NCBI GenBank assembly: GCA_026985075.1
Contig: JALSQX010000010.1
Coordinates: 1 to 64,000 of the forward strand
Origin: Blastocatellia bacterium
GTDB taxonomy: Bacteria > Acidobacteriota > Blastocatellia > HR10 > J050
Length of the DNA stretch: 64,000 bases
Direction of reading: 5' to 3'
The notes beneath the pieces are model-generated. The model saw nothing but the letters and a program-made list of their open reading frames with translations, had not been told where the DNA came from and searched no databases. Positions 52,216 to 63,555 of this stretch are shown here, in pieces. Position 1 is the first letter of the stretch. Every line of letters starts with the position of its first letter. The translations under genes and the position numbers were made by a program.

Positions 52216-52746
52216 TCAAGGGAGGCGTCGGGCACACGAAGGACAGAAGGTGGACGATTTCAGATCGACCTCGGCGATGGAATTGGAGAAATGCATCACA
52301 CACTCCACACGGCGACAATGAACCAGCCCAAACGTATGTCCCAACTCGTGGAGAGCTTCTTTCTCGCACCGCTCCAGGAAGAGTTTCTCGTCGGGCGGCA
52401 GTCCATAGAACTCTTGACGCAGTCGATGAACCGAAACCACGGCTGCCCGACCGCCCAACTGTGCTTCGCCGAACACGAACGTCAGCACGGGGATGAAGAG
52501 ATCCACGTCGGTCACACCCAAGACCTTGATCTCATCCGCCTCACTCAAGTCCGCCAATTGGATCAGGATCTCTCGCGATCTATACTGCTGTCGCTGATCG
52601 TCGTATGCTCGACGCGTATCGACGAGGCGATGATGAATGGAACAGGGGGCGTCCAGTGTCTCCGGTAAGACGAGCCGGAGGTAGTCCATCACGGTCATCT
52701 CGACGCCTCCCACCGGGACGATATGGATGTGAACCTGAGTCACCAC
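52216..52746 (-). CDS. amzA: Archaemetzincin-type metalloprotease
   Basis: 176 residues. The zinc site HELGHTFGLVH (133-143) is followed by C144, C149 and M151 in the metzincin Met-turn, and by CPSC (168-171), the archaemetzincin pattern HExxHxxGxxHC-x4-CxM...CxxC, with 16 residues between the Met and the CxxC. The cysteines bind a structural zinc. No signal peptide, so it is cytoplasmic; bacterial members have no well-defined substrate. GTG at 52746 begins nine bases after the stop codon of the sigma-54 response regulator, with its ribosome site overlapping, so translation is coupled to that regulator. Confidence 0.9.
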   Translation of the reverse strand: MVTQVHIHIVPVGGVEMTVMDYLRLVLPETLDAPCSIHHRLVDTRRAYDDQRQQYRSREILIQLADLSEADEIKVLGVTDVDLFIPVLTFVFGEAQLGGRAAVVSVHRLRQEFYGLPPDEKLFLERCEKEALHELGHTFGLVHCRRVECVMHFSNSIAEVDLKSSTFCPSCARRLP

Positions 52747-52756
52747 TCCTTCCCCG

Positions 52757-54112
52757 TCACGATGCCTCCCGCTTCAGTTGATATTTCTTGATCTTATTGT
52801 ACAGCGTCACCCGGTCGATACCCAACAACCGAGCGGCGCGCGAGATATTCCATCCCGTCTCTCTCAACACGCGCTCGATGTGTTGGCGTTCCACATCGGC
52901 CAGCGTTCGTCCCGGGGAAAATTCTCGTCCTCCATTGACCTGGAAGGGGAGATCGCCCGGTTGAATCTCCCCGGTCTTACAAACCAGGACAGCGCGTTCG
53001 ATGGCATTTTGCAGCTCGCGCACGTTCCCCGGCCAGTCATAATCGATGAGCAAATCCATGGCGGCCGGTGACACGCCAGCGATGGATTTGTTCATGCTCC
53101 GGGCAAACTTGTGCAGAAAGTGTTCCACCAGCAGGGGAATATCTTCTCGCCGCTCGCGCAGCGGAGGGATGGCAATGGAAAAGACGTTCAATCGATAATA
53201 TAAATCCTCGCGGAATCTCCCCTCGGCGACCATAGCTTCCAGGTCCTTATTGGTCGCGGCGATCAATCGAAAATCCACCGGGATCAGTCTATTCCCACCC
53301 ACACGACAGATCTTTTTCTCCTCCAGTACCCGTAACAGATCGATCTGTGTCTTCAAGCTGATGTCGCCGATTTCGTCCAGGAATAGTGTCCCTCCGTCGG
53401 CCATCTCAAACTTCCCCTTCCGCCGGTACTGGGCTCCGGTGAATGCTCCTTTCTCATGCCCAAAGAGCTCGCTCTCCAGGATGCCCTCAGCCAGCGCGCC
53501 ACAATTGACGACGACAATGGGCATGTAGCGGCGCGGGCTGTTGGCGTGAATTGCTCGAGCGATCAATTCCTTGCCGGTGCCACTCTCACCCCGGATGAGA
53601 ACCGTCGTATCGGACTGGGCGACGAGCCTGACCTGCTCCAGCACGCGTTGGATGGCTGGACTCCGTCCTACGATCTCGTGAAACTGGTTCATCTCGTCGA
53701 TCTTCCGGCGGAGCTGAACATTCTCTGCCATCAACTGCTTCCGCTCAACGGCATTGCGAATCAAGTGCTCCAGGTCATCGGGATCGAACGGTTTGACGAT
53801 GTAGTCATACGCCCCTTGTTTCATCGCCTCCACGGCCGTCTCTACCGAAGCATAGGCCGTCATGATGATAACGGTGGAGCGAGGATGCATCTGCTTGATC
53901 TTGCGCTGAAGCTCGAGGCCATCCATGCCGGGCATCTTGATATCGATCAGAAAAATATCCCATTGTCCCGTAGTCAACTTCTGCAAAGCGTCCTTCCCCG
54001 AGGCGGCCACATCGACGGCGTATCCCTCCTCGCGGAACCAGCTCCCCAGAGAGCGACGAACGATCTCTTCGTCATCGACGATCAAGATGCGGATGTGGTC
54101 TTTCCTCGCCAT
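52757..54112 (-). CDS. Sigma-54-dependent response regulator (NtrC/ZraR type)
   Basis: 451 residues: receiver domain (1-120) with acidic pair DDEE (13-16), phospho-acceptor D57 in FLIDIKMPG and K107 in IVKPFD; AAA+ domain with Walker A GESGTGKE (175-182), GAFTGA (222-227) and Walker B GGTLFLDEIGD; C-terminal Fis helix-turn-helix (GWNISRAARLLGIDRVTLYNKIKKYQL). It activates sigma-54 promoters when phosphorylated. Its start lies 31 bases inside the end of the haem kinase gene, so both are made from one mRNA. Sigma-54 promoters near the GcvH-like genes, the kinase and a cytochrome are probable targets. Confidence 0.95.
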   Translation of the reverse strand: MARKDHIRILIVDDEEIVRRSLGSWFREEGYAVDVAASGKDALQKLTTGQWDIFLIDIKMPGMDGLELQRKIKQMHPRSTVIIMTAYASVETAVEAMKQGAYDYIVKPFDPDDLEHLIRNAVERKQLMAENVQLRRKIDEMNQFHEIVGRSPAIQRVLEQVRLVAQSDTTVLIRGESGTGKELIARAIHANSPRRYMPIVVVNCGALAEGILESELFGHEKGAFTGAQYRRKGKFEMADGGTLFLDEIGDISLKTQIDLLRVLEEKKICRVGGNRLIPVDFRLIAATNKDLEAMVAEGRFREDLYYRLNVFSIAIPPLRERREDIPLLVEHFLHKFARSMNKSIAGVSPAAMDLLIDYDWPGNVRELQNAIERAVLVCKTGEIQPGDLPFQVNGGREFSPGRTLADVERQHIERVLRETGWNISRAARLLGIDRVTLYNKIKKYQLKREAS

Positions 54113-55803
54113 GATGATCCCTCTGGAAAGAGTTTCATATTTACCGGCGTTCGGCCGTCACCGTACTGGTTGGATCGATCTTGACGGTCGTCGGCCGCTG
54201 GTTTCTCTTCCTCCGGTTTTTCGGGCAGCCAGATAGTGAACGTCGTCCCTCGCCCCGGAGTCGAGTCCACCTCAATGTGTCCATGGTGACGGTTGATGAT
54301 TCCGTATACGACGGCCAATCCGAGCCCCACTCCCTTACCCGCTTCTTTCGTGGTGAAGAAGGGCTCGAAGATGTGTTTTTGCGTCTCCTCGTCCATGCCA
54401 ATCCCATTGTCCTGGATCGTGATGGCCACCATGTGTCGGTCGGGACGATAGGATGAACGCACCTGGAGCACTCCTTGACCAGGTGTCATCGCCTCACAGG
54501 CATTGATGAATATCGCCACCAATGCTTGCTTGATTTGTTGCCGGTCACAAATAATGGTGGGGATGCGTTCGTCCAGTTGCACCTGCGTCTGGACATCCAT
54601 GAGGTCGATCTTATGCTGCACGAGGCGAAGGGATTGAGCGATGAGTTCATTCACATCGTGAGGTTGAAAATTGGCCGTCGTCTGGCGCGCAAACTGAAGC
54701 AGACTTTTGACGATCTCACCACAGCGCGCCGATTCATGGGCGATGAATTCCAGATACGGCTCGACGCCCTCGCTCTCATCCAGGAAGACGCTGGCGCCCT
54801 TCAGTTTCTTCAACAACAGCTTGGCATAAGTGAGAATTCCAGCCAATGGATTGTTGATTTCGTGGGCGACAATCGCTGCCAGCCTTCCGATGGACGCCAT
54901 GCGCTCCACATGAAGCATCTGCTCGTGCGCTCGTTTCAACTCGGCCGTCTTCTCCTCGACGCGACACTCCAGCGTCTTGGCCCACTCGGTGAGCTGCTCG
55001 TTTGCCCGTTTGAGTTCTTCCGTCATGCGATTGAAGGACGCGGCGAGCTCTCCGATTTCATCGCCCGAGGAGACGCGGATCTTGTGATCCAGGTCGCCCG
55101 CGGCCACTCGTTGAATCCCAGCAGTCAGTTGCTTCACCGGTTTATGAACCAGGCGCCAAACGAGTCCCCCGACGATCAACGAGATGATCAGAATGGCCAA
55201 CGCGCAGTTGACGATCATTTGCCATTCCCCTTGGGCCATGATGGCATCGACCTGGGCGAGCGACATGGTCACGTCCAGCACGCCGAGCACCTGCTGAGCC
55301 GGCGGATGTACGTGACAGGCGGCATTGTAACAACTGGGCTCATTCTCGATGGGGTTGATCAGTCCGAGAATCCGCTCTCCGCGCGCATCCCGGTAGATGC
55401 GCACGCGATCGGGACGGTTCAATCGCGTCAAAGGTTGACGCCGGGCATGACAGGCGTAACAGGCCTCGGCCTTCTTGTCCACAAACGTTCCCCTCTCCTG
55501 TTCATCGGTGGAGAAACTGATCATGCCCTCCTCGTTGAAAAGACGAATCTTGCTGATCCCCGGCTGGGCTCCAATGGTGTTGATGATGTGGTAGATGGCC
55601 TCTCGATTATTCCTCAACATGAGGTAGCGCGTACTGCGTTTGATGGTCTCGCTGATGCGGTCGGCACTGGCTACGGTCATCTTCTCCAGATGTTGTCGAT
55701 GCAGCCGAATGTTTTGATAGCCCACCACCGTGTAAATGGCGGCCAGGCTGCCCAGGAGGCAGATGACTAATTTGAGGCTCAAACTCGATGTCCAATTCTT
55801 CAC
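54082..55803 (-). CDS. Membrane histidine kinase with periplasmic double-haem (CxxCH, Cx4CH) sensor
   Basis: 573 residues. Membrane helices at about 10-29 and 197-217 enclose a 165-residue periplasmic domain that carries CYACH (115-119) and CYNAACH (158-164): one ordinary and one extended c-type haem motif. A HAMP domain (about 218-270), coiled coil, phospho-acceptor H314 in VAHEINNPLAGILTYAK, and the ATPase boxes (NACEAM, DNGIGMD, FEPFFTTK, GVGLGLAVVYGI) follow. It most likely senses redox state, oxygen, NO or CO in the periplasm through covalent haem and phosphorylates the sigma-54 response regulator, whose gene overlaps its 3' end. Confidence 0.92.
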   Translation of the reverse strand: MKNWTSSLSLKLVICLLGSLAAIYTVVGYQNIRLHRQHLEKMTVASADRISETIKRSTRYLMLRNNREAIYHIINTIGAQPGISKIRLFNEEGMISFSTDEQERGTFVDKKAEACYACHARRQPLTRLNRPDRVRIYRDARGERILGLINPIENEPSCYNAACHVHPPAQQVLGVLDVTMSLAQVDAIMAQGEWQMIVNCALAILIISLIVGGLVWRLVHKPVKQLTAGIQRVAAGDLDHKIRVSSGDEIGELAASFNRMTEELKRANEQLTEWAKTLECRVEEKTAELKRAHEQMLHVERMASIGRLAAIVAHEINNPLAGILTYAKLLLKKLKGASVFLDESEGVEPYLEFIAHESARCGEIVKSLLQFARQTTANFQPHDVNELIAQSLRLVQHKIDLMDVQTQVQLDERIPTIICDRQQIKQALVAIFINACEAMTPGQGVLQVRSSYRPDRHMVAITIQDNGIGMDEETQKHIFEPFFTTKEAGKGVGLGLAVVYGIINRHHGHIEVDSTPGRGTTFTIWLPEKPEEEKPAADDRQDRSNQYGDGRTPVNMKLFPEGSSWRGKTTSAS

Positions 55804-56116
55804 GATGTGCTCCTCGCCCCCTCTCGGTCAGATCAACCTCAAATCCCCTTCATCGCCGCATCTCCACTATCAGCGTGTGCAACTTCCATTCCAAAACGGC
55901 GCTCAGGGTGGACTCACCGCTCGCTCACAAGTCACGCTCATTCAGTACATTACACGATATCGCCGGGGATATGGCATTCACAGAAGCCACGTTGCATAAC
56001 CGTATGGGTCAAACCGCCCAGTGATGCGCCTTGACACCCCCACCGCGGCGCCCATACCGATCTCGGTTGTGGAATGGCTGATGCTGGACCTCGAGTCGCG
56101 GTCGCGTCAGGCATCG
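55804..56116 (-). promoter_or_regulatory. Intergenic region with a sigma-54-like promoter for the kinase-regulator operon
   Basis: Minus strand TTGGAATGGAAGTTGCA (55878-55894): GG and GC with the correct ten-base interval, -12 perfect, -24 TTGGAATG one to two changes from TTGGCACG. It gives a leader of about 65 bases. No GTTGAA/TTCAAC dyads like those before the GcvH-like genes were seen here. No gene in the gap. Confidence 0.45.
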
Positions 56117-56827
56117 TTACGCTCTCGCCCATTCATCGGGATGGAGGAATTCCCGAGTGAACCGAGACCAGGTTTCGTCATCCATCATCTCCAGCACCCC
56201 GTCGGTCAGTCGGCCGCCATCCTGAAGCACCTGACCCCGAGCCATGGCTTTGAAGGGATGGGCGGCGATAAGCTGTCGGAATCGCTCGATCTCCTTATTC
56301 ATCCACGTCGTGGCCTCTCCAGCGACGGCCAATCGCCTCAGATGCTGAGCCAGGTTTCGGGGACGCAGCACACAAACCCATCCTTGCTCATACGGATCAA
56401 TCTTGATGGCGTCCGCATGTCGAGCCAGCCGCTCGTTCACTGCGGCGACCACCCCGTCCACAGGCGCCACGAACGCGGCCGTCCGCTCGCCTTGCCGAAC
56501 GACAAACAGCGTCTCACCGCGACGAACAGGACGACCGACTTCGGGCATCTCGACAGCATCGATGCGACCGATGGCTCTCTGAGCGAAGTCGTCTACTCCC
56601 ACACGCACGCGACCCGAAGAATCGAGGTCAACCCAGGTGTGCCCGACGTCGAAGAACATGCCCTGGGGCACCGAGACGCCCTCCAAAGCCAACACCGATC
56701 CCCGGCGCTCACGCGATGTCAGCGCAGTCGGTTGAGCCCGCCGCTGCTCCCTGGCCTCTGCCCGCTGGACCAGCGCATCAATCGCGATGAAAGCGATGAC
56801 GGTTAAGATGACAAACAATGCCACCAT
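56117..56827 (-). CDS. Membrane-anchored GcvH-fold protein without the lipoyl lysine
   Basis: 236 residues. An N-terminal membrane helix (VALFVILTVIAFIAIDALV) is followed by a linker and a GcvH-like biotinyl/lipoyl fold: GMFFDVGHTWVDLDSSGRVRVGVDDFAQRAIGRIDAVEMPEVGRPVRRGETLFVVRQGERTAAFVAPVDGVVAAVNERL. In GcvH the lipoyl lysine sits in ESVKAASD before APVSG; here the aligned residue is E114, so it cannot carry lipoate at that place. A helical C-terminal domain (WMNKEIERFRQLIAAHPF) follows. The start at 56827 has GGAGGTGA seven bases upstream; it lies four bases after the companion gene. Confidence 0.8.
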   Translation of the reverse strand: MVALFVILTVIAFIAIDALVQRAEAREQRRAQPTALTSRERRGSVLALEGVSVPQGMFFDVGHTWVDLDSSGRVRVGVDDFAQRAIGRIDAVEMPEVGRPVRRGETLFVVRQGERTAAFVAPVDGVVAAVNERLARHADAIKIDPYEQGWVCVLRPRNLAQHLRRLAVAGEATTWMNKEIERFRQLIAAHPFKAMARGQVLQDGGRLTDGVLEMMDDETWSRFTREFLHPDEWARA

Positions 56828-56831
56828 CCTC

Positions 56832-57701
56832 TCACCTCCCTTCGTCACCATCGGCTCTCGCTCGGCTCTCAACGGCGAGGGGCTGACCGATGGCAACGGA
56901 GAAAAATCTATGGACGATGTCTCGCCATTGCGGCGCACGGATGAACTCATCCAGGTCTTCGACTAGTGAACCGCCGTCCTGGAGCGTGCGCCCCAAACGG
57001 GACCCAATATGGGGAGCGAGGGTCACCAAGGTTTCCCAGAGCTTTCTGATCTCATCGTCGAGCCACCGTTTGGCCTGCTGCCCATAGTGGAGGAGCTTCA
57101 GACTCTCGATGAGTTCCGTCGGTCGAATGACCACCGCCCACCCCTGACCATAGGGGTCGAGATTGATCAGGGAGGGGTGCATACTCAATCTCTCGTTGAG
57201 GCAACTGATGATGCCAGTGATGGGAGCAACCAGCATCGTCTCTCCGGCGCGATGCCCGATCCGCCAACAGGGGTGACCAATCATGACCTCGGTTCCCAGC
57301 GGCGGTAACCGCACCGCATGAATGCGGCCCACCAAGCGTTGGCCGAAATCATCCAGCCCGATGCGCACATCGCCCCTCGCTTCCACCCGCACCCAGACGT
57401 GGCCGGGATGATAGAACAATGTGGTCGGCAACCGGAATCCCCTCACGCGCTCGGCCGTCCCCCGTTGGGGAGTAGACCTCGCCGCGCGTCGGTTCGTCAG
57501 CGAAGACCAGCGCGGCGTCCCGGCATCCGCGTGGGCCAACGGAGCCCCTCCTCGGAGAGCACGATCAAATGGGCAACGCTCACACTCGTACTCTCGATCA
57601 CACAACTTGTAATTGACGACTCCGGCCAGCATCCATAGACACTTGAACGCCTCCTCCGGCTTCATGGCCATCTCACGGTGTCGATTCCACTGGTCTCTCA
57701 T
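56832..57701 (-). CDS. Cysteine-rich GcvH-fold protein without the lipoyl lysine
   Basis: 289 residues. The N-terminus carries the motif CLWMLAGVVNYKLCDREYECERCPFDRAL with C21, C34, C40 and C43, a known companion of GcvH-like proteins near redox-sensor genes in other bacteria, as far as I recall. The GcvH fold (LFYHPGHVWVRVEARGDVRIGLDDFGQRLVGRIHAVRLPPLGTEV) follows; at the lipoyl position an alanine stands in GHRAGETMLVAPITG. The C-terminal helical domain (WLDDEIRKLWETLVTLAPHIGSRLGRTLQDGGSLVEDLDEFI) resembles that of the downstream protein. Start at 57701, with AAGGAGG ten bases before; M11 is an alternative. It is the first gene of a two-gene operon under a sigma-54 promoter. Confidence 0.8.
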   Translation of the reverse strand: MRDQWNRHREMAMKPEEAFKCLWMLAGVVNYKLCDREYECERCPFDRALRGGAPLAHADAGTPRWSSLTNRRAARSTPQRGTAERVRGFRLPTTLFYHPGHVWVRVEARGDVRIGLDDFGQRLVGRIHAVRLPPLGTEVMIGHPCWRIGHRAGETMLVAPITGIISCLNERLSMHPSLINLDPYGQGWAVVIRPTELIESLKLLHYGQQAKRWLDDEIRKLWETLVTLAPHIGSRLGRTLQDGGSLVEDLDEFIRAPQWRDIVHRFFSVAIGQPLAVESRARADGDEGR

Positions 57702-57740: not shown

Positions 57741-57757
57741 TGCAACCGGCATGCCAA
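57741..57757 (-). promoter_or_regulatory. Sigma-54 promoter of the GcvH-like operon
   Basis: Minus strand TTGGCATGCCGGTTGCA fits the -24/-12 consensus TGGCAYG-N4-TTGCW throughout, with ten bases between GG and GC. The start would be near 57730, leaving a leader of about 30 bases with AAGGAGG at 57711-57717. Confidence 0.8.
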
Positions 57758-57858: not shown

Positions 57859-57966
57859 GTTGAATAATTCAACATCGGATGAGAGAGAGCAGCATAAAAC
57901 CGCTGCAGGCTCCTCTGGTTACGGTCGTTGAACGGCGTGGAATTTTTCAACACCAGATGTTGAAAA
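57859..57966. promoter_or_regulatory. Candidate enhancer dyads for the sigma-54 regulator
   Basis: GTTGAATAATTCAAC (57859-57873) is a perfect 15-base palindrome about 135 bases upstream of the start. TTTTCAACACCAGATGTTGAAAA (57944-57966, 9-base arms with 5-base spacer) lies about 225 upstream. An extra GTTGAA is at 57927. The repeating GTTGAA/TTCAAC half-site and the distance are what an NtrC-type regulator would need. Confidence 0.6.
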
Positions 57967-58044
57967 GCTCCACACTCGATGCGGTGCTCATGGAGGCAGG
58001 AAGGAGGCGCACCGACTGAGACTACTACGGCTTCGGGCCGGTTC

Positions 58045-61777: not shown

Positions 61778-62314
61778 CGGTGGGCACTCACGACGTCCCG
61801 GGAACTGAGGGCGTCGAGCGCTCTGCTCCGTCCCTCTCAGGATAGGGGCGTTTGAACACGATGGGGCTGAGCGACGTGACGAGAGCGGACTTGAGGAACG
61901 CCATCGGAAATCGCACCTGAGCGCGGCAAGGGGAGGCGTCTCACCTGCTCCAGCGCGCTCGCCTGAGACTGATCAACACCGGTTCACGACACCATCGCGT
62001 TCATGTCATTCGACCCACTGTTCACTCGCGCCAATCCACGCGACTGGGCGAAGGTCCCCAGCGCTGGGTCTCTTCACCCATTCGATTGCCCTGGAGGAGC
62101 ATGCCCCATTGATCGAGGGGAGTTCCCGATCACCTTTTGTTGCAAGTAATTAACTTGTGTCGCTCCGAATCTCCACCTCCGCACCGAGCCGTGGCACAGC
62201 AGTTGCTCTCAGCAACCGGGGAGCGCGGGAATGGGGTCATATCAACCTCGTCTCCATGCTCGTCGTTCCTCACCCGTAGTGGGGTGAAATTCGTCTGAAT
62301 AAGGAGGTCAACGT
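61778..62314 (+). promoter_or_regulatory. Gene-free region with sigma-54 promoter of the di-haem cytochrome
   Basis: GTGGCACAGCAGTTGCT (62191-62207): -24 TGGCAC and -12 TTGCT with the correct ten-base gap between GG and GC. GTTGCTCTCAGCAAC (62202-62216, 6-base arms) overlaps the -12 and start. CAAGTAATTAACTTG (62143-62157, 5-base arms) lies 35-50 bases further upstream and is a possible activator site. The predicted start near 62218 gives a leader of about 97 bases. Nothing else is recognisable. Confidence 0.6.
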
Positions 62315-62620
62315 ATGAGCAAGCCGACTGTACGAAAGATCAAGCTCGCAGCGGTCCTGCTCGCCATATTCATCGGTCTTGGTCTCTCCTACTTCAATGC
62401 GCAAGGCTCGGCCAATTCGACTCCTCAACGAACGAAGGTGAGCGCCACGACGGCGAAGTTGGCGCAAACTCAGGGGATGCACGCTCTGACCGCCGGCCCG
62501 CCGCACGGCGATGCGCCCGTGTTGGAATGCTGGGATTGCCACGGAGAACACCCGGATCGAAGCCAAGCGCCCCCGGCCAGTCAGATGTCGTGCTTCAATT
62601 GTCATGAAATCAAGAGCTGA
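62315..62620 (+). CDS. Small exported di-haem c-type cytochrome
   Basis: 101 residues. An N-terminal signal peptide or anchor (IKLAAVLLAIFIGLGLSYFNAQGSA) precedes a short linker and two covalent haem motifs, CWDCH and CFNCH, the second almost at the C-terminus. The sequence LECWDCHGEHPDRSQAPPASQMSCFNCHEIKS resembles the short haem segments of NapC/NrfH-type and multihaem cytochromes. It should act as a periplasmic electron carrier. GGAGG lies eight bases before the ATG. It precedes the penta-haem cytochrome gene, and a sigma-54 promoter lies upstream. Confidence 0.85.
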   Translation: MSKPTVRKIKLAAVLLAIFIGLGLSYFNAQGSANSTPQRTKVSATTAKLAQTQGMHALTAGPPHGDAPVLECWDCHGEHPDRSQAPPASQMSCFNCHEIKS

Positions 62621-62883: not shown

Positions 62884-63555
62884 ATGGAAAGAGGATGGAA
62901 GAGAAGACAGTTCACCAAGCGCCTCATTGGCGTCCTGGGGTTGCTCGCACTGGTGTGGGCTTCCGTTTCATTGAGCAAAGAGAGGGTGACGGCCGAACGC
63001 GGAGCAATGACGCGGCATCCTGAGGCATCGGTTTTCGATCACCCCGCTGCGTCGTCTCCTCCAACGGTTCAACTCCGAAACGGATTTCAGGAGGACGAAG
63101 ATCCCCACAATCGCGCTCCATCACTTGAGTGTTTGACCTGTCACGGCCCGCATCCGCCCAACAGCGCCGAAGACATTGAGGATCCCAATTTCGAGATCCC
63201 CCCACACCGGCGAGGACCGCAACTCGATTGCTCTCATTGTCACACCTACGACCCCGAGCTCGAAGAGATCGATCCCAACGGCTGCGTGGGCTGTCATGAG
63301 AGGGGAGGATACCCCATCCTGGAGGCCCTGGATACGCTCACCCGGGAAGTCGGCCATCCTTTCATTGCCCCTTTTATCAGGGACGTCCCGAGCGACTGTC
63401 TGTTATGCCATCAGGGGAATTTAGGCTCCCGGTTACATCGACGTCATTTTTTGAAAGACACCACATTCATCCGCCACTTCCAGACGGGCTGCGTTCGATG
63501 TCACGCTCTCACCGAGAGCGGCACATTCGTCGTCACTTCTCAACCGCTCCCCTGA
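62884..63555 (+). CDS. Exported penta-haem c-type cytochrome
   Basis: 223 residues. The N-terminus MERGWKRRQFTKRLIGVLGLLALVW has a twin-arginine-like RRQFTK ahead of a hydrophobic helix. Five CxxCH motifs follow: CLTCH, CSHCH, CVGCH, CLLCH and CVRCH, with histidines in between that could be distal ligands (HRRGP, HPFIAP, HRRHF). It is a multihaem electron carrier of the periplasm or envelope; its electron partners are unknown. GGGAGGAAGTC precedes the ATG. The spacing of 263 bases from the di-haem gene allows one mRNA or two. Confidence 0.88.
   Translation: MERGWKRRQFTKRLIGVLGLLALVWASVSLSKERVTAERGAMTRHPEASVFDHPAASSPPTVQLRNGFQEDEDPHNRAPSLECLTCHGPHPPNSAEDIEDPNFEIPPHRRGPQLDCSHCHTYDPELEEIDPNGCVGCHERGGYPILEALDTLTREVGHPFIAPFIRDVPSDCLLCHQGNLGSRLHRRHFLKDTTFIRHFQTGCVRCHALTESGTFVVTSQPLP

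Follow-up and report, generated by a model that had tools for sequence, protein, structure and literature searches.

A gene pair beside a haem two-component system

The window (the whole stretch of DNA that we analysed, 64,000 nucleotides from a Blastocatellia bacterium) has two related open reading frames on its minus strand, GHA and GHB. Both encode a domain that resembles GcvH, the H-protein of glycine cleavage. The features that we refer to are:

52216-52746, minus strand: archaemetzincin (M54), with its zinc motif HELGHTFGLVH intact; matches PF07998 and NF033823
52757-54112, minus strand: NtrC-type response regulator with receiver, sigma-54 AAA+ and Fis HTH domains (domain matches)
54082-55803, minus strand: membrane histidine kinase with N-terminal haem motifs, followed by HAMP, HisKA and HATPase_c (domain matches and motifs)
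55804-56116, minus strand: gap where relatives have HybA-like and NrfD/HybB-cytochrome genes, which are missing in the window
55878-55893: weaker -24/-12-like site within this gap
56117-56827, minus strand: GHA (236 aa), with a membrane helix, a lipoate-less GcvH-like domain and a C-terminal DGG domain
56486-56488, minus strand: codon of Glu114 of GHA, at the lipoyl-lysine position (from alignment to H-proteins; numbered from the likely start)
56765-56827, minus strand: N-terminal membrane helix of GHA, about residues 1-21 (from hydropathy and an AlphaFold2 helix)
56832-57701, minus strand: GHB (289 aa), with a four-cysteine N-terminal module, a lipoate-less GcvH-like domain and a C-terminal DGG domain
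57246-57248, minus strand: codon of Ala152 of GHB, at the lipoyl-lysine position (from alignment to H-proteins)
57573-57641, minus strand: Cys module of GHB, C21-x12-C34-x5-C40-x2-C43 (from alignment)
57741-57756, minus strand: near-consensus sigma-54 type -24/-12 promoter, TGGCATGCCGGTTGCA, about 54 bp before the start of GHB (sequence match)
62192-62207, plus strand: second strong -24/-12 site, TGGCACAGCAGTTGCT, ahead of c-type cytochrome genes (sequence match)
62315-62620 and 62884-63555: c-type cytochrome genes behind TGGCACAGCAGTTGCT, with two and five CxxCH motifs, respectively

As listed, the open reading frame of GHA reaches 56950. The start is probably at 56827 instead (Met42 of the listed frame), because that methionine is where every close homologue starts and because a good ribosome-binding site, GGGAGGTGAGAGG, lies upstream of its ATG. 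The original prediction for this locus, which was made from the sequence alone, had given one of the two proteins a membrane helix. This is GHA: the mean KD hydropathy is 2.88 across 19 residues from residue 2, and AlphaFold2 places a helix at residues 2-30. The charges that follow the helix suggest that the GcvH domain of GHA faces the cytoplasm, but this topology is inferred.

The neighbouring kinase had been described as haem-sensing. It does have two haem motifs, CYACH and CYNAACH, both in the N-terminal sensor region. It also has an HEINNP H-box (at 314) along with the HisKA and HATPase_c domains, and a receiver is encoded in the operon. All 22 of the kinase homologues that we examined have CxxCH and a second motif, which is mostly Cx4CH.

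Both proteins have the GcvH fold but lack the lipoyl lysine

Both GHA and GHB match PF01597 (GCV_H) from Pfam (E = 1.9e-22 and 2.3e-20, respectively), and by sequence, their best matches in the PDB are solved glycine-cleavage H-proteins. Our AlphaFold2 model of GHA, built with a 17-sequence input, has a mean pLDDT of 84.7. When this model was compared to the PDB with Foldseek, H-proteins were at the top (1onl, TM = 0.92 by target length). For GHB, pLDDT is above 90 over most of the GcvH domain, and the TM scores to solved H-proteins, including the E. coli H-protein, are 0.93-0.94 (by target length). So the GcvH fold that had been proposed for both proteins is confirmed. The two proteins also share a C-terminal domain, as had been noticed: the pair is 35% identical, and this domain has a long helix and a DGG motif that is invariant in both of our alignments (A3 and A4).

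The lipoyl lysine of H-proteins aligns with Glu114 of GHA and Ala152 of GHB, which are the replacements that the original prediction had named. It had also proposed a search for homologues that lack the lysine, and we found it missing at this site in 53 of 54 aligned family members. The site is mostly glycine or alanine; aspartate, glutamate, serine, asparagine and other residues also occur. The lone lysine (locus L140, 7678-8403) is without the ES-x-K context, and the ES-x-K motif is absent from all of the family members that we aligned. The canonical H-proteins in the same alignment keep the lipoyl lysine (5 of 5). In a phylogenetic tree, the family is monophyletic and stands apart from canonical GcvH on a long branch (length 1.02, support 0.91). 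GHA and GHB also score under the NCBIfam cut-offs for gcvH. Because the defining lysine was tested for and is absent, we do not class these proteins as GcvH.

A role in glycine cleavage, which had been considered unlikely, can be rejected: family members lack the lysine, a canonical GcvH is encoded elsewhere in the genome (the only other one, on contig C67), and the neighbouring genes that we read are of other kinds. The original prediction would have been refuted by a lysine at the lipoyl position or by homologues that always sit in glycine-cleavage operons. No lysine aligns there in GHA or GHB, and the genes that we read at the loci are those for HybA/NrfD, the haem kinase, the sigma-54 regulator and the archaemetzincin rather than a recognisable glycine-cleavage operon.

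The four-cysteine motif that had been reported near the N terminus of the other protein proved to be part of a full module, C21-x12-C34-x5-C40-x2-C43, in GHB. All four cysteines are invariant in 15 of 15 full-length homologues (alignment A3). The module was modelled at low confidence (pLDDT below 50). We infer that it is a Cys4 metal site, for zinc or FeS, but we have no metal data. The module is doubled in the GHB-like proteins of two loci, L134 and L156. We also saw Cys modules apart from the GcvH domain; these keep the DGG motif and adjoin GHA (L067, 339-554; L064, 10433-10948).

A conserved neighbourhood with HybA and NrfD

Close relatives of the GHA-GHB pair are found in the same order. 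By scanning genome contigs with the GHB alignment, we found further members of the family in Acidobacteriota, Gemmatimonadota, Candidatus Eisenbacteria and Ignavibacteria (phyla were taken from the record titles). As the pair recurs across phyla, it is not a chance arrangement. About 75 of 297 Acidobacteriota genomes, or roughly a quarter of the sample, have family-type matches. (This count is from a survey table and includes matches that reach into the C-terminal domain or have a long frame; the members were not each checked.)

In relatives, the operon runs GHB, GHA, a HybA-like ferredoxin, a fusion of NrfD/HybB with cytochrome c7, the haem kinase, the NtrC-type regulator and the archaemetzincin. 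We examined 43 loci that were picked solely for having a GH protein (GHA- or GHB-like). Many of these came from high-scoring matches, and several are cut by contig ends. The HybA-like FeS protein is present at 35 loci and NrfD/HybB at 34, which makes HybA/NrfD the most constant partner, and their genes are often directly adjacent to the GH genes. The di-haem kinase is present at 29 loci and the sigma-54 regulator at 26. Whether this kinase and regulator are always next to the pair had been left as a question; they are common neighbours, but not invariable ones. The archaemetzincin is a conserved partner of the haem two-component system as well (24 of the 43 loci).

The HybA-like protein of the relatives is a four-cluster ferredoxin, and it occurs with the NrfD membrane subunit. 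NrfD is fused or linked to cytochrome c7, and we saw no catalytic subunit in the conserved operon. HybA occurs as two subtypes, only one of which has a Tat signal, and the two may therefore lie on different sides of the membrane. At L148 (1-3209), a single frame of 1069 aa joins NrfD to a long multihaem cytochrome region with matches to PF11783 and to cytochrome c7/c3.

A few relatives (4 of the 43 loci) have HypA next to the operon. We rejected a role as a hydrogenase accessory: the gene for the large subunit was not seen at the locus, and in the window genome the [NiFe] subunit genes are on other contigs. A viral or mobile origin was rejected as well, as there is no relative among viral contigs.

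HybA/NrfD has been lost at the window's locus. Using tblastn, we found no remnant of either gene in the roughly 300 bp between GHA and the kinase, and the sole HybA/HybB elsewhere in the genome is a hydrogenase-linked pair (on contig G000:C36; 50% and 42% identity). The most constant partner was not visible from the window sequence alone.

HybA/NrfD are also missing from L134 and L156, where a GHB-like protein lies beside a kinase, a sigma-54 regulator and an archaemetzincin. Because the window and these two loci keep the GcvH-like proteins without HybA/NrfD, these proteins remain with the two-component system in the absence of the redox module. (The kinases of L134, 2328-4358, and L156, 2630-4660, have a sensor region that resembles the large subunit of [FeFe]-hydrogenase, with ferredoxin and Fe-S domains.) At four other loci (L135, L137, L138 and L150), GH proteins occur with HybA/NrfD and there is no kinase on the same strand of the stretch examined. 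The kinase set of L135 sits on the opposite strand.

Sigma-54 promoter sites

Three -24/-12 sites of this quality were observed in the window, versus 0.06 expected. Similar sites are found in 7 of 25 homologous upstream regions, whereas 200 shuffled controls gave 0.27 on average and never more than 2. Because these sites precede GHB and its homologues, the regulator that the operon encodes probably controls the operon itself. Promoter activity is inferred from sequence. The c-type cytochrome genes at 62.3 kb may be a target of the sigma-54 regulator too. No copy of the larger gene (62884-63555) turned up in the 11 nearest genomes, so this is only a candidate target, and we rejected this operon as a conserved member of the regulon. 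We also noticed an inverted repeat, GTGGAATTTTTCAACA/TGTTGAAAAGCTCCAC, upstream of the GHB promoter (57937-57973); it is a possible site for an activator or regulator.

Receiver domains fused to the GcvH-like domain

In four families of Acidobacteriota, a receiver domain is fused to the GcvH-like domain. We found nine such proteins at eight loci:

L131, 7248-8585
L145, 6576-7697
L146, 6922-8049
L147, 153-1538
L148, 4244-5431
L149, 1779-2615 and 2670-3779
L151, 6927-8048
L152, 7431-9077

PF00072 and PF01597 were both matched in all five of the fusions that we scanned with Pfam. The phospho-acceptor aspartate, the acidic pair, the threonine and the lysine of the receiver are intact in all nine, and eight have a membrane helix (one has none). 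In the tree, the fusions nest within the GHA clade. Where the contig allows, the fused gene adjoins the haem kinase or lies close to it (the L147 locus is truncated by the end of its contig). Neither a sigma-54 regulator nor an archaemetzincin was seen at these loci, within the stretches examined. The window's GHA and GHB do not have a receiver domain themselves.

Because the GcvH-like fold is fused to an intact receiver beside a haem kinase, it appears to be tied to a phosphorelay. Fusions of this kind are a classic argument for a functional link, and we consider this the strongest link in our analysis, but it is drawn from predicted proteins: phosphorylation is inferred, and we have no data on it. 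The original prediction held that the pair works with the adjacent kinase, and the fusions beside the same type of kinase support this directly. Whether the proteins act as a scaffold or as a regulator is a matter of inference.

What do GHA and GHB do?

We propose that GHA and GHB are lipoate-independent, membrane-associated signalling adaptors that link a quinone/cytochrome redox module to the haem two-component system. We put the probability of this at roughly 0.55. In relatives, the HybA-like FeS protein and NrfD/HybB-cytochrome c7 would pass electrons between quinone and periplasmic haems. The di-haem membrane kinase would respond on the periplasmic side, either to the redox state or to a ligand of haem such as NO, and the response regulator would be the output. 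Without a swinging lipoyl arm, the GcvH fold could serve as a docking domain, with GHA tethered to the membrane by its N-terminal helix and GHB bearing the putative Cys4 metal site. Together, they would connect the redox module or the kinase to the output. In the lineages with fused receivers, phosphorylation might act directly on the GcvH domain. Physical contact, the direction of signalling, the biochemical action of the proteins and the process that is controlled are all inferred, and we have no interaction or phenotype data. As HybA/NrfD were lost from the window's species, the set of GHB, GHA, kinase, regulator and archaemetzincin would work there alone or with another redox partner.

A bolder form of this proposal is that the lipoate-free GcvH fold is a dedicated output or adaptor of the phosphorelay. 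The di-haem kinase would then control a membrane quinone-cytochrome module via the membrane-anchored receiver-GcvH protein, which would be an undescribed class of response regulator that acts on respiration and not on DNA. We hold this only tentatively, and would bet slightly against it.

The main rival to the adaptor proposal gives the GcvH-like proteins a structural or assembly role as subunits of the HybA/NrfD complex, where they would form a cytoplasmic cap; the two-component system would then do no more than regulate the operon. Such a cap would be comparable to the barrel-sandwich domains of NqrA, and the GcvH domains do have NQRA_N matches, although these are weak and under Pfam's cut-off. 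The constancy and the frequent adjacency of HybA/NrfD favour this rival. So do the few loci with GH proteins and HybA/NrfD but no kinase in the stretch examined; they are just as compatible with a structural role in the redox module and count against the adaptor proposal. Two further points against that proposal are the low-confidence model of the Cys module and the inferred topology: the Tat-type HybA should be periplasmic and the GcvH domain is probably cytoplasmic, so direct contact between the two cannot be general. Nevertheless, the GcvH-like proteins persist beside a kinase and a regulator without HybA/NrfD (in the window genome and at L134 and L156), and the receiver fusions are hard to square with a purely structural cap. 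We consider a structural role unlikely, but it deserves to be taken seriously.

Another possibility is that the window's pair is a decaying remnant that lost its function along with HybA/NrfD. Those genes are gone from the locus and, except for the hydrogenase set, from the genome, and a genome from the same genus lacks the pair. But the reading frames, the key cysteines, the DGG motifs, the kinase, the regulator and the zinc motif are all intact, and there are clear ribosome-binding sites and the near-consensus promoter, so decay seems improbable. Least plausible of all, and very doubtful, is that GHA and GHB are mobile redox or acyl carriers (like LbpA in sulfur oxidation) with another covalent group or with lipoyl elsewhere: they have a carrier-protein fold and the L140 protein has an aligned lysine, but that lysine is out of its sequence context, the ES-x-K motif is absent from every member, and the hairpin has no conserved lysine or other attachment residue.

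If the adaptor proposal is correct, then a domain from a metabolic carrier became a part of a signalling system. Our results suggest that evolution reused an old metabolic carrier fold as a signalling adaptor. This would be a widespread redox unit, given that GH proteins occur in other phyla and in about a quarter of the Acidobacteriota genomes that we sampled. It would also imply that the label glycine cleavage system protein H has been given to many proteins that do not carry lipoyl groups. With the receiver-GcvH fusions, one can test directly if a respiratory complex can come under the control of a two-component system while transcription stays the same.

Comparison with known systems

We found no description of such GcvH-like proteins or of this operon in the open-access papers that we searched, a set that lacks most subscription journals. 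GHA and GHB resemble GcvH (PF01597, TIGR00527) in their fold (TM of about 0.92-0.94) and in the GHxW and APxxG landmarks. They differ from it in lacking the lipoyl lysine, in their additional parts (a membrane helix or a Cys module, and the C-terminal DGG domain), and in their operon. Other homologues of GcvH have been recruited outside of glycine cleavage. GcvH-L of Streptococcus is an example. LbpA of the sHdr sulfur-oxidation system is another (PMC10332631). LbpA is lipoylated on its own lysine, whereas GHA and GHB cannot be lipoylated at that site. Among the neighbouring genes that we read, we noticed no sHdr, sLpl(AB) or LipS1/S2 gene.

The four-cluster ferredoxin and the NrfD subunit of the relatives are similar to HybA/HybB of group-2 [NiFe] hydrogenase and to other NrfD-type complexes (PMC8076601). 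In contrast to those complexes, the conserved operon has no catalytic subunit that we could see, its NrfD is joined to cytochrome c7, and GcvH-like proteins are present. The terms glycine and histidine kinase are absent from the review of NrfD complexes (PMC8076601).

The kinase resembles the c-haem Cache sensors (sCache_heme; GSU0582/GSU0935) in being a membrane signalling protein with a periplasmic CxxCH (preprint PMC12889525). When fused to signalling modules, c-haem Cache sensors broadly like this one bind NO (preprint PMC12889525). The window kinase has a weak match to PF21563, and no match to PF11845 in our Pfam scan. Unlike these sensors, its homologues have the second haem motif (22 of 22).

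Finally, the architecture of a kinase with a sigma-54 receiver regulator is that of AtoSC, ZraSR and other NtrC-type systems. This locus differs in having a haem sensor, GcvH-like partners and an archaemetzincin, and in the use of a receiver-GcvH fusion as the output in some lineages. Two-component signalling, NrfD modules and the GcvH fold are each of a kind that is already known.
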